This document shows, piece after piece, positions 13,631-50,023 of a stretch of DNA of 64,000 nt; position 1 is the stretch's first letter, and every line of letters begins with the position of its first letter. Source of the DNA: Rhizobium sp. L43 (GTDB taxonomy: Bacteria > Pseudomonadota > Alphaproteobacteria > Rhizobiales > Rhizobiaceae); assembly GCF_002531725.1 (NCBI RefSeq), contig NZ_NWSQ01000016.1, forward strand, positions 124,001 through 188,000, read 5' to 3'. The notes beneath the pieces were generated by a model. It did no database searches. It was given only the letters and a program-made list of their open reading frames with translations, and was not told the origin of the DNA. The translations under genes were made by a program, and so were the position numbers.

Positions 13631-13688
13631 TTTTCTGTCCTTCAATCCTTGTATCCGCCGGTCCCTGCATCAGCAAAGTCAGGTACAC

Positions 13689-13724
13689 ACAAAAGAAAAC
13701 AGGTCCCGAAGGGGAGCTTCGGAA
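13689..13724 (-). terminator. Intrinsic terminator-like hairpin in the greA leader
   Basis: On the minus strand GGTTCCGAAG, loop CTCCC and CTTCGGGACC form a ten-pair stem followed by TGTTTTCTTTT. It lies about 60 bases upstream of the greA start codon. No minus-strand gene precedes it (the upstream gene is on the plus strand), so it most likely terminates the greA leader itself, as an attenuator or as the 3' end of a short leader RNA. Confidence 0.6.
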
Positions 13725-13860
13725 CCGTGCCACAATCCTAGTTAAGTGCTTATAGCAGATCGCCAAGGCCGATTTCCAGAAAATTCGCATGAACTAAACG
13801 CAACCCGCCGCGGCATCCGATGGTGCGCCTGAAAAATGGGCGAGGGCGGGATTGCTCGGA

Positions 13861-13891
13861 TTGACTTTGTGCTCCGGAACATATAGTGAAC
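13861..13891 (+). promoter_or_regulatory. LexA-type SOS box overlapping the promoter of the radical SAM/UdgX operon
   Basis: GAACATATAGTGAAC at 13877-13891 fits the alphaproteobacterial LexA site GAAC-N7-GAAC exactly. It contains the -10-like TATAGT (13882-13887), 15 bases after a -35-like TTGACT (13861-13866). Bound LexA would cover the promoter. Transcription would begin a few bases before the ATG at 13898, giving a nearly leaderless mRNA. Confidence 0.72.
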
Positions 13892-13897
13892 ACTCTA

Positions 13898-15130
13898 ATG
13901 AAGAAGTCGCTCACAGAACGCCTGGCCATCCTTTCCGACGCCGCGAAATATGACGCTTCCTGCGCTTCCAGCGGCACGGTGAAACGCGATTCTCACGCAA
14001 GTGGCGGGCTCGGTTCGACCGAGGGATCCGGTATCTGTCATGCCTATGCTCCGGACGGGCGGTGCATTTCGCTTCTGAAAATACTGCTGACCAATTTCTG
14101 CATCTACGATTGCGCCTATTGCGTCAATCGCTCGTCGAGCAATGTCGAACGGGCGCGCTTTACGCCCGAGGAGGTCATCTGGCTGACGCTGGAATTCTAC
14201 CGCCGCAACTATATCGAAGGCCTGTTCCTTTCCTCCGGCATTATTCGTTCGTCAGATTACACGATGGAAGAGATGGTCCGCATCGTCCGCGAACTGCGTG
14301 TGACCCACAATTTCCGCGGATATATCCATCTGAAATCGATCCCCGAGGCGTCGCCGCGTCTGATCGAGGAGGCGGGGCTTCATGCAGACAGGCTGTCGCT
14401 CAATATCGAGTTGCCGACGGATAACGGCATCACCCGCTTTGCGCCGGAAAAGAAGCCTGCCAATATCCGGCGATCGATGGGGGATCTGCGGCTGAAGATC
14501 GAGGCCGCCGGCGAACCGACGCTGCAGACGAAGAAGCGTCAGCGTTTCGTGCCGGCCGGCCAGAGCACACAGATGATCGTCGGCGCCGATGGCGCGAACG
14601 ATGCGACGATCCTTGCGACCAGCGGCCGGCTTTATAGCAGCTACGGGCTGAAGCGCGTCTACTATTCCGCCTTCAGCCCGATCCCGGACTCGTCGAAAAA
14701 CCTGCCGCTGATCAAGCCGCCGCTGATGCGGGAACACCGGCTCTATCAGGCCGACTGGCTCTATCGATTCTACGGTTTCGGCATTGACGAGATCACCGCG
14801 AACCAGGCGGATGGCATGCTCGATCTCAGCCTCGACCCCAAACTTGCCTGGGCGCTCGCCAACCGGGCAGAATTCCCCGTCGATATCAACAAGGCCGAGC
14901 GTGAACGGTTGCTGCGCGTGCCCGGTCTCGGCACCAAGACCGTCAAAGCGATCGTTTCGGCGCGGCGTTTTCGCCGGTTGCGGCTCGATGATCTCCAGCG
15001 GCTCGGCATTTCGATCAAGAAGGTTCAGTCTTTCATCTCGGCGGAAGGCTGGTCGCCGCGCCGATTGATCGAGCGCCCCGACCTTCGCGCCATGTTCGAA
15101 CCGCAGCCCGAACAATTGTCGTTGCTGTGA
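13898..15130 (+). CDS. Putative DNA modification/repair radical SAM protein
   Basis: A 410-residue radical SAM enzyme of the family always linked to a UDG-like partner (TIGR03916 type). The 4Fe-4S cluster cysteines are Cys68, Cys72 and Cys75 in LLTNFCIYDCAYCVNR. Additional conserved residues are ASCASSG (20-26) and the GSTEGSGICHAY segment. A C-terminal helix-hairpin-helix (LLRVPGLGTKTVKAIVSARR) suggests DNA contact. ATG 13898 is preferred over GTG 13886 because the latter lies inside the SOS box and the family begins MKK-like. The stop overlaps the start of the UdgX gene. The exact reaction is unknown; a role on damaged or modified bases is inferred from the partner and the LexA-type site. 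Confidence 0.85.
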   Translation: MKKSLTERLAILSDAAKYDASCASSGTVKRDSHASGGLGSTEGSGICHAYAPDGRCISLLKILLTNFCIYDCAYCVNRSSSNVERARFTPEEVIWLTLEFYRRNYIEGLFLSSGIIRSSDYTMEEMVRIVRELRVTHNFRGYIHLKSIPEASPRLIEEAGLHADRLSLNIELPTDNGITRFAPEKKPANIRRSMGDLRLKIEAAGEPTLQTKKRQRFVPAGQSTQMIVGADGANDATILATSGRLYSSYGLKRVYYSAFSPIPDSSKNLPLIKPPLMREHRLYQADWLYRFYGFGIDEITANQADGMLDLSLDPKLAWALANRAEFPVDINKAERERLLRVPGLGTKTVKAIVSARRFRRLRLDDLQRLGISIKKVQSFISAEGWSPRRLIERPDLRAMFEPQPEQLSLL

Positions 15131-16587
15131 TGCGCCGGGTCGTGCTTGCAGGACGCGGGGAGCTTGCCGAATGGCGTGACGCCGCGCGCGCTTTCGCGGT
15201 CGCCGGCATCCTGCCGGAAGAGATCGATTGGCGCGAAAAAAGCGAGGAGGCGGACCTTGCGTTTCAACGCGACGCCATGCCGCCGGCGCCTATCATGGCA
15301 CGCAAGCCGATGACGGTGCCGCCCGCCTTCATCGATCTCGCGGAGACAGTTCTCTGCCATTCCGACGCGGCGCGTTTTTCCCTGCTTTACCGTCTGCTCT
15401 GGCGGCTGCAACTGGACCGCCAACTGCTTGAAGTGGCTTCCGACGAGGACGTCGCCCGTGCCAGGCTGATGGCGAAAAACGTTCGGCGCGACGCGCACAA
15501 GATGACGGCCTTCGTTCGCTTCAAGGAGGTTGGTGCGGTGTCGGTGGGCCGTCGAAAATTCCTCGCCTGGTTCGAGCCGGATCACCATATCGTCAGGCGC
15601 ACAGCGCCCTTCTTTCAACGGCGCTTCACCGACATGGACTGGCTGATCGCGACGCCCAAGGGATCGGCCGCCTGGGACGGCGAGCGGCTGACGATGAGCG
15701 ACGAACCGTGTGAAAAACCCAATCTCACCGATGCTACCGACGAACTTTGGCGCACCTACTACGCCAGCATTTTCAATCCGGCGCGGTTGAAGCTGAAGGC
15801 GATGCAGGCGGAGATGCCGAAAAAATACTGGAAGAACCTGCCGGAAGCCGATCTCATCCCTGGGCTGATCGCATCGGCGGAGAGCCAGGTGCGGGCCATG
15901 GCTGCACGGGAGGCGACCCAGTCGTTGCCCTTTCACGATCGCCTGCAGGAAGCCGCGCGCAGCATTCCGGCCGAGCCCGAAGCGCCGGCGGGCACGCTGG
16001 AAGCACTGCGCGCGGAAGCTGCCGCCTGCACCCGCTGTCCGCTTCATGCGAAGGCCACGCAAACCGTATTCGGGGAGGGGCCACGCGATGCCGAGGTGAT
16101 GTTCGTTGGCGAGCAGCCGGGCGACCAGGAGGATATTGCCGGGCGCCCCTTCGTCGGTCCGGCCGGCAGGCTGCTGGATCAGGTGATCACTGAAGCGGGC
16201 ATTGATCGCTCAACGCTTTACGTCACCAATGCCGTCAAGCATTTCAAATATGAGCCGCGCGGCAAGCGTCGCATCCATCAGAAGCCCAATATGGGCGAGG
16301 TGAAGCATTGCCGCTGGTGGCTCAATCTGGAGATGGCACTGATCAAGCCGAAGCTCATCGTTGCGATGGGGGCGACGGCGCTCGCGGCGCTGACCGATAC
16401 GAAACAGCGGCTTCAGGATGTCAGGGGGAAAGCGATCGCGATCGATGAGGAGCGAACGCTCTTCGTGACGGTGCATCCATCCTATCTGCTGCGTATTCCC
16501 GATGAGCGGCTGAGAGCGGAGGAACTGGCACGATTTCGCGAAGATATGCTGATGGTTCAGCGCCTTATGGTGGCCGCTGCATACTGA
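15130..16587 (+). CDS. UdgX-family uracil-DNA glycosylase with N-terminal DUF4130 domain
   Basis: A 485-residue fusion. The first roughly 270 residues form the DUF4130 domain (TIGR03915 type), including [20 protein letters not shown]. The C-terminal part is a family-4-like UDG with four cluster cysteines (CTRCPLH early), motif [10 protein letters not shown], the UdgX-specific loop KRRIH at residues 379-383, and motif B HPSYLLR near 449. In UdgX the loop histidine forms a covalent bond with the abasic sugar after uracil release, leaving the protein attached to DNA. ATG 15130 overlaps the previous stop (TGATG), so translation is coupled. GTG 15127 is an alternative start. Confidence 0.9.
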
Positions 16588-49895: not shown

Positions 49896-50023
49896 AAGGA
49901 TTAATCCTTCTGAACGCAAACTGAATGTGCGGTTCGAACGCGGTTCAGTTTGCCGCGGTTACTGTCGAGACAATCCCTGAAGGGAGAGTCGTAAAGACAA
50001 AGAACAAACCGACGGAGATACCC

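Follow-up and report, generated by a model that had tools for sequence, protein, structure and literature searches.

According to the portions of the literature drawn on here, uracil-DNA glycosylases (UDGs) of COG1573 and proteins of COG4277 form a 'UDG base excision repair' operon that is under SOS/LexA control in Bacteroidetes, and the same account cites SOS control of this operon for Verrucomicrobia and Alphaproteobacteria (PMC8565304); that the SOS response governs a pair of genes of this kind is thus already published. SplB-like radical S-adenosylmethionine (SAM) photolyases have been described in SOS neighbourhoods with DUF4130 and UDGs (PMC3765255). UdgX is defined by the motifs GEQPG, KRRIH and HPSxLLR (PMC10359453), and has found use in base editors and in the mapping of uracil. 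Alphaproteobacteria commonly have leaderless mRNAs, with 375 in C. crescentus and 171 in S. meliloti (PMC4117421). Here we analyse a locus in 64,000 nucleotides (nt) of DNA from Rhizobium sp. L43 (contig NZ_NWSQ01000016.1, positions 124,001 to 188,000; this whole stretch is referred to as the window), in which an SOS box lies a few bases before a radical SAM gene that is followed by a gene fusing DUF4130 to UdgX. We take COG4277 to be TIGR03916, the family of this radical SAM protein.

The best explanation of the locus, at a probability of about 0.78, is that an SOS promoter repressed by LexA, with an operator that forms part of the core promoter, drives a near-leaderless radical SAM-DUF4130(-UdgX) repair operon. 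An earlier note on this DNA had predicted a damage-inducible, near-leaderless operon for a covalent uracil-binding protein and a radical SAM partner, and the comparative evidence set out below lends that prediction support.

The SOS box and its distance from the start codon

The promoter region of the operon contains the following elements.
13877..13891, + strand: LexA (SOS) box GAACATATAGTGAAC, of the alphaproteobacterial direct-repeat type (GAAC, spacer ATATAGT, GAAC), supported by the sequence and by orthologues
13861..13866, + strand: -35-like TTGACT, seen in the sequence; its TTGAC is invariant, 16 nt ahead of the box, in the 15 loci, the window's included, whose box lies 6 nt from the start codon
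13882..13887, + strand: -10-like TATAGT inside the SOS box, seen in the sequence

The box stands exactly where the earlier note had placed it, and TATAGT does overlap it. Six bases (ACTCTA) separate the box from the radical SAM ATG at 13898 and no purine-rich ribosome site lies between the two in the window, both as claimed there. TTGACT and TATAGT are separated by 15 nt, and the -10-like element has its first T 16 nt before the ATG, with a predicted leader of about 4 nt. For the layout proposed earlier, 'near-leaderless' is the word that fits the window, with its short predicted leader; strict leaderlessness is better predicted for orthologues whose gap is 2 nt or 14 nt. The GTG that lies within the box, at 13886, was considered as an alternative start of the open reading frame (ORF) and rejected, as its frame relation to the ATG is not kept in orthologues (short-class gap 1-7 nt). 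The same genome encodes lexA (G000:C92:47698-48411, above cut-off), which has its own box.

Considered alone the box is at chance level, as GAACN7GAAC was found twice in the window with 2.02 occurrences expected; the second match, GAACCGCGTTCGAAC at 49932-49946 (- strand), is consistent with chance. Genome-wide the pattern is moderately enriched (99+90 sites vs 70+75 for the reversed pattern). The box is counted as real because it is conserved at a restricted position in orthologues. TIGR03916 scored above cut-off in 22 of 289 genomes of the class (the window's own genome counted) and in 135 of 297 genomes of the family, and a first set of 112 orthologues comprised all 22 class genomes and the 90 top-scoring of the 134 other family genomes. 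An exact box, GAACN7GAAC or GTTCN7GTTC within 120 nt of the start-proximal conserved KYD motif, precedes 111 of the 112, the sole exception being L013, and GAAC repeats with spacers of 5, 6, 8 or 9 were found in 0-1 of these loci. One first-set locus, L040 (genome G447), is alone in carrying the reversed box (GTTC-N7-GTTC), still 2 nt from the ATG. A second set of 81 loci consisted of the 80 best among at least 585 confirmed matches, mostly with named organisms, and one viral contig; it overlaps the first (for example L273 with G227 and L345 with G397). The exact box precedes 78 of these 81, L275 and L290 being one base off and the third miss, L331, being from Xanthomonas. Conservation upstream of orthologues, which the earlier note had named as a check, is thus evident in both overlapping sets, and by this conservation the SOS box of the radical SAM-DUF4130 operon is a genuine element.

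The box is not merely present but lies close to the start codon. Of 111 loci, 76 have a gap of 1-7 nt between the two (34 of them 2 nt and 15 of them 6 nt), 18 a gap of 14 nt and seven one of 17-38 nt. For comparison, lexA, recA and uvrA were taken from 29 genomes drawn from the first orthologue set. The lexA boxes lie 40-66 nt from the start in 25 of 26 readable cases, the remaining one (L189, gap 4) having a mis-picked start; in L185 the picked start lies upstream of its own box, L202 has no ATG, and L197 is the one lexA without an exact box. Exact boxes, absent from 18 of 28 recA and 3 of 28 uvrA genes, are 113-128 nt from the start in the other 10 recA loci and 96-208 nt in the other 25 uvrA loci. 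The near-start layout is not common to these three other SOS genes.

The distance between the -10-like element and the start codon is similarly restricted. With hexamers ranked by a simple in-house scoring and expected counts obtained from shuffles, 42 of 111 loci have their best -10-like hexamer starting exactly 12 nt ahead of the start codon (expectation 2.5), and in 85 loci it starts 11-17 nt ahead (expectation 20.0); the 12-nt distance occurs in 1 of 26 lexA, 0 of 28 recA and 2 of 28 uvrA controls. It is shared by 14 of the 24 loci with gaps of 13-16 nt and 27 of the 76 with gaps of 1-7 nt. In the short-gap class the -10 lies in the box spacer, while loci with a 14-nt gap have a separate, new TATA motif after the box. 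The operator has thus moved by about one helical turn and the -10-to-start distance has been kept, which is what a transcription start at the start codon, or right beside it, would predict. The sixth position of the box is T in 90 of the 110 GAAC-oriented boxes of the operon but in only 1 of 28 lexA boxes, which is consistent with the spacer doubling as the -10. Median pairing with the anti-Shine-Dalgarno (anti-SD) sequence is -2.3 kcal/mol in the short-gap class, compared with -6.4 for lexA, -7.6 for recA and -3.8 for uvrA. A leaderless or ultra-short-leader transcript from the operon is a well supported prediction from these comparisons.

Outside the class a different operator is found. TIGR03916 was above cut-off in 103 of 397 genomes of the phylum, and all 35 that lie outside the class were examined. 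CTGT-N8 followed by ACAG or CCAG occurs upstream in 30 of the 35 loci (25 with ACAG), with 0.13 expected from mononucleotide shuffles. CTGT-N8-ACAG is given as the LexA motif of most beta- and gammaproteobacteria in the part of the source used here (PMC3323433), and the non-class genomes probably belong to these groups. Gaps to the start of 13-17 nt occur in 21 loci and a gap of 2 nt in a single locus, and four loci have a picked GTG start that overlaps the box; leaderlessness is not general in the loci outside the class. Among loci of one family, L377 and L400 carry the palindrome GGTCTCAT-N3-ATGAGACC, which is imperfect in L389, and L331 (Xanthomonas dyei) has GTCTCA-N5-TGAGAC in place of a CTGT-type box. 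These palindromes precede the conserved KYD motif by about 50-90 nt and may be sites of another LexA or another repressor.

The radical SAM, DUF4130 and UdgX genes

The operon encodes the following features; in the window it is flanked by a divergent greA upstream and a convergent carB downstream.
13898..15130, + strand: radical SAM gene, TIGR03916 (rSAM_link_UDG), 410 residues, stop codon TGA at 15128-15130; 572.1 bits vs cut-off 343.5
13961..14065, + strand: N-terminal cysteines C22, C47 and C56, invariant in 46 aligned proteins, in a low-confidence region of the model
14099..14122, + strand: CX3CX2C radical SAM cluster motif (C68, C72, C75), invariant; PF04055 above cut-off
14876..14968, + strand: helix-hairpin-helix-like region, residues 327-357; HHH_3 at 26.4 bits vs cut-off 27, weak match to PDB 2duy (E 0.0085)
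15128..15132, + strand: stop/start overlap TGATG, seen in the sequence
15130..16587, + strand: DUF4130-UdgX fusion gene, 485 residues from the ATG at 15130, from the ORF list and family profiles
15154..15849, + strand: DUF4130 (TIGR03915) domain, residues 9-240; 213.6 bits vs cut-off 112.25
15853..16557, + strand: UdgX domain (TIGR03914), residues 242-476; 353.8 bits vs cut-off 189.95
16108..16122, + strand: UdgX motif A, GEQPG (GEQPGDQ), seen in the sequence; motif as given in the part of PMC10359453 used here
16264..16278, + strand: UdgX R-loop KRRIH, seen in the sequence, its last residue at the position of the DNA-cross-linking histidine

The earlier note had identified the second gene as UdgX. 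This is correct for its C-terminal half, which also bears motif B (HPSYLLR, matching HPSxLLR), but the DUF4130/TIGR03915 domain in the N-terminal half had been missed. In the loci compared, the SOS box tracks radical SAM-DUF4130 and not UdgX. DUF4130 is above cut-off in 133 of the 135 radical SAM-positive genomes of the family, the two others being G454, with a gene cut by a contig end, and G483, with a gene that contains stop codons. UdgX is above cut-off in 166 of 297 family genomes, which, from a list read by eye, are 131 of the 133 DUF4130 genomes and 35 in which DUF4130 does not reach its cut-off. In 19 genomes chosen for closer study, because UDG was missing from its usual place or the layout was unusual, DUF4130 is not fused to UdgX in seven, and five of these seven lack UdgX above cut-off; six of the seven keep the SOS box, the seventh being L013. 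In three genomes of genus g240 the DUF4130-UdgX gene is placed elsewhere without an exact box and the radical SAM gene keeps the box; these separations probably go back to a single event. In the window's own genome the standalone UdgX (G000:C11:95235-95810, L407), which has a KRRLH loop, has no exact box in the 300 nt upstream. Most unfused DUF4130 operons thus retain the box, and the separated or standalone UdgX genes inspected lack an exact one, so that SOS control appears to follow radical SAM-DUF4130. From these profile matches the radical SAM-DUF4130 pairing is near-constant and UdgX is a frequent passenger, an optional fusion.

Further layouts were seen. In Acetobacter nitrogenifigens (L313:4287-5648) the DUF4130 half looks intact and the UDG half lacks both GEQPG and the cross-linking histidine; this is a natural UdgX-dead operon in which the SOS box is still present. 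In L107 (genome G314) a nucleoside-deaminase-like gene with a weak TadA match (44 bits vs cut-off 150) lies downstream of the radical SAM gene, and in L134 (G408) and L136 (G309) an ORF whose ending closely resembles that of the L107 gene directly precedes DUF4130-UdgX. L104 (genome G516) and G483:C41:99644-100774 are radical SAM orthologues with in-frame stop codons and are apparently decaying; for G483 no DUF4130 was listed.

The TGATG overlap suggests translational coupling of the two genes. Among the 99 loci with a downstream UDG-type ORF, of which two picks are truncated or false, 65 have the mechanically picked start of gene 2 at -4 or -1 with respect to the radical SAM stop; the other 13 of the 112 first-set loci gave no UDG, the cases listed being DUF4130-only genes, genes beyond the flank and genes elsewhere. 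R-x-H is present in all 97 first-set UdgX picks that reach the loop, a count that omits L066 (truncated) and L107 (false match). In the named set the UdgX pattern matched 53 of 60 gene-2 picks; the seven unmatched picks are four DUF4130-only genes (three of them, L273, L274 and L341, confirmed as such by a family scan), L292 and L320, which do have R-x-H, and the degenerate L313.

The NCBI name of TIGR03916 is 'putative DNA modification/repair radical SAM protein'. Members of this family are expected to be paired with TIGR03915/TIGR03914, and in the window these are indeed adjacent. A Rhizobium leguminosarum plasmid carries a radical SAM protein that is 98.3% identical. The structural model (predicted local distance difference test score, pLDDT, 78.5) aligns best with lipoyl synthase and HydE, and also with biotin synthase, the top alignment reaching a Z of up to 17.0 over 226 residues at a root-mean-square deviation (rmsd) of 3.2. 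Spore photoproduct lyase is not among the 50 fold rows listed, which excludes nothing. C22, C47 and C56 could possibly form an auxiliary metal site or hold a second Fe-S cluster, and the helix-hairpin-helix-like C-terminus, which falls slightly short of the Pfam cut-off, points to binding of DNA.

The DUF4130 model (pLDDT 85.8) has no Foldseek match at E 0.001, the best being at E 0.039. The top VIA-align rows are mostly RecJ, Cdc45, family II PPase and PAP phosphatase at Z 5-7, below the trusted Z of 8, and the best of all rows (Z 6.9, rmsd 4.8, 176 aligned residues) is too weak to trust. DHH, the catalytic motif of the DHH/RecJ phosphoesterase superfamily, is found neither in the consensus nor in the invariant columns of 50 DUF4130 sequences. 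The resemblance of the modelled DUF4130 fold to this superfamily is a lead only.

Proposed mechanism and alternative explanations

In the mechanism that we propose, the spacer of the GAAC-N7-GAAC box would supply the -10, and the start codon would lie at, or a few bases past, the transcription start. LexA of this species, when bound, would cover the -10 and the start region and silence the operon. Removal of LexA upon DNA damage would then yield an mRNA that is leaderless, or has a leader of about 4 nt, and is translated without a ribosome-binding site. The products would be a DNA-directed radical SAM enzyme and a translationally coupled DUF4130 protein, here fused to UdgX. Radical SAM and DUF4130 would form the core pair for SOS repair and act on a damaged base by radical chemistry, and the fused UdgX would be an accessory that excises uracil, shields the abasic site through its covalent histidine bond and holds the complex at the lesion. 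A more ambitious joint reading, which is possible but doubtful, has radical SAM-DUF4130 as the core SOS machine for radical-based direct repair, with a DUF4130 that is RecJ-fold-like but motif-less, UdgX as an optional, fused anchor by which uracil or abasic sites are covalently marked for this machine, and a promoter repeatedly rebuilt, as LexA specificity changed, into a leaderless switch in which operator equals core promoter.

Several observations weigh against the proposed promoter and operon. The 16-nt -10-to-ATG distance in the window predicts a short leader, not strict leaderlessness, and a sigma-70 consensus scan of 13640-13960, which accepts spacers of 16-18 nt and not the 15 nt present here, gives no site. 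The -35 is poorly conserved in the 2-nt-gap class, unlike TTGAC in the 6-nt class. A Shine-Dalgarno (SD) motif is found in 6 of 76 loci with gaps of 1-7 nt, 5 of 24 with gaps of 13-16 nt and 4 of 11 with other gaps, and in 12 of 26 lexA, 4 of 28 recA and 4 of 28 uvrA controls; a plain SD count separates the operon from lexA only, and from recA and uvrA only the pairing energy does so. The first-set loci come, for the family, from the higher-scoring 90 of 134 genomes, and they are interrelated, so that their counts do not represent independent events. Many of the non-class boxes are 13-17 nt from the start, some with an AAGGAG-like ribosome site, and five of the 35 non-class loci (L375, L396 and three loci of one family) have no CTGT-type box. 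The repair chemistry is proposed from family resemblance. A near-start box may also not be unique to this operon: GAACATACAGTGAAC at G000:C15:40854-40868 (L408), one base from GAACATATAGTGAAC, lies 14 nt before a mechanically picked GTG ORF of 103 residues with no assigned function.

It could be argued that the SOS box is real but that transcription begins further upstream with an ordinary leader, LexA acting as a roadblock near the start codon. The empty sigma-70 scan at the box and the seven loci with gaps of 17-38 nt would fit such an arrangement, which we nevertheless consider quite improbable, as it does not explain the restricted -10-to-ATG distance (12 nt in 42 loci), the weak ribosome-site pairing, the TTGAC held invariant 16 nt before the box in the 6-nt class, or the downstream TATA that replaces the in-box element when the gap is 14 nt. 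That the box is a chance match, in line with the two occurrences expected and found in the window, has a negligible probability; it was rejected on the conservation of the box at a restricted position in 111 of 112 orthologues.

Other alternatives concern the purpose of the operon. It may exist for UdgX, as an SOS-induced covalent trap for uracil or abasic sites, with radical SAM-DUF4130 as an accessory that, for example, releases or repairs the trapped site. The invariant R-x-H of the UdgX picks that reach the loop and the presence of UdgX in 131 of 133 DUF4130 genomes agree with this proposal, but it is unlikely in view of the seven chosen genomes with unfused DUF4130, five without UdgX above cut-off and six with the box, of the boxless standalone UdgX and separated g240 genes, and of A. 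nitrogenifigens, in which both UDG motifs are lost and the box remains. The NCBI family name also allows a role in DNA modification, or in defence against phage, instead of repair. This is very improbable: neither protein is matched by a PADLOC model at E 0.01, on which ground a defence system was rejected, of 52 pattern matches in viral contigs a single one was confirmed as a relative, and the conserved control is that of the SOS response; a PHROGs search gave weak domain-level matches only. A near-leaderless, LexA-repressed radical SAM-DUF4130 repair operon with optional UdgX remains the reading that we prefer.

Comparison with known systems

The literature search found no paper joining UdgX with radical SAM, and the matches listed for leaderless transcripts together with LexA and SOS include none on the radical SAM-DUF4130 operon. 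In the parts of the literature searched, the near-leaderless layout, its conservation and the tracking of DUF4130 over UdgX by SOS control were not found. What appears to be new is that the near-leaderless design is conserved and recurs under two LexA motifs, and that SOS control follows radical SAM-DUF4130 with UdgX optional. The radical SAM protein is tied to SOS in nearly every alphaproteobacterial locus examined and, outside the class, through a second LexA motif, which makes a DNA-lesion substrate a concrete, testable expectation. The fusion of UdgX to DUF4130 and its coupling to a radical SAM enzyme suggest where to look for the natural role of UdgX, and the near-leaderless SOS promoter would offer a clean system for the behaviour of leaderless transcripts under DNA damage.

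Similar to the Bacteroidetes operon, the locus pairs a COG1573 UDG with, on the equivalence assumed above, a COG4277 protein under LexA control; the passages of that account used here differ in naming no DUF4130, leaderless layout or 'UdgX' (PMC8565304). The window operon type is distinguished from it by an operator that, in most of the alphaproteobacterial loci studied, lies a few bases from the start codon, and by a CTGT-type box outside the class. As with the SplB-like photolyases, a radical SAM protein is found in an SOS context with DUF4130 and a UDG (PMC3765255, in the part used here). In contrast with those photolyases, the window protein is a member of TIGR03916 with a helix-hairpin-helix-like C-terminus, and at E 0.001 no model of spore photoproduct lyase was listed for it. 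The UdgX half shares GEQPG, KRRIH and HPSxLLR with Mycobacterium smegmatis UdgX, of which 6ail and 6ajo are among the best solved relatives. The solved UdgX chains span 205-229 residues, whereas in the window UdgX makes up the C-terminal half of a fusion with DUF4130, encoded behind a radical SAM gene.

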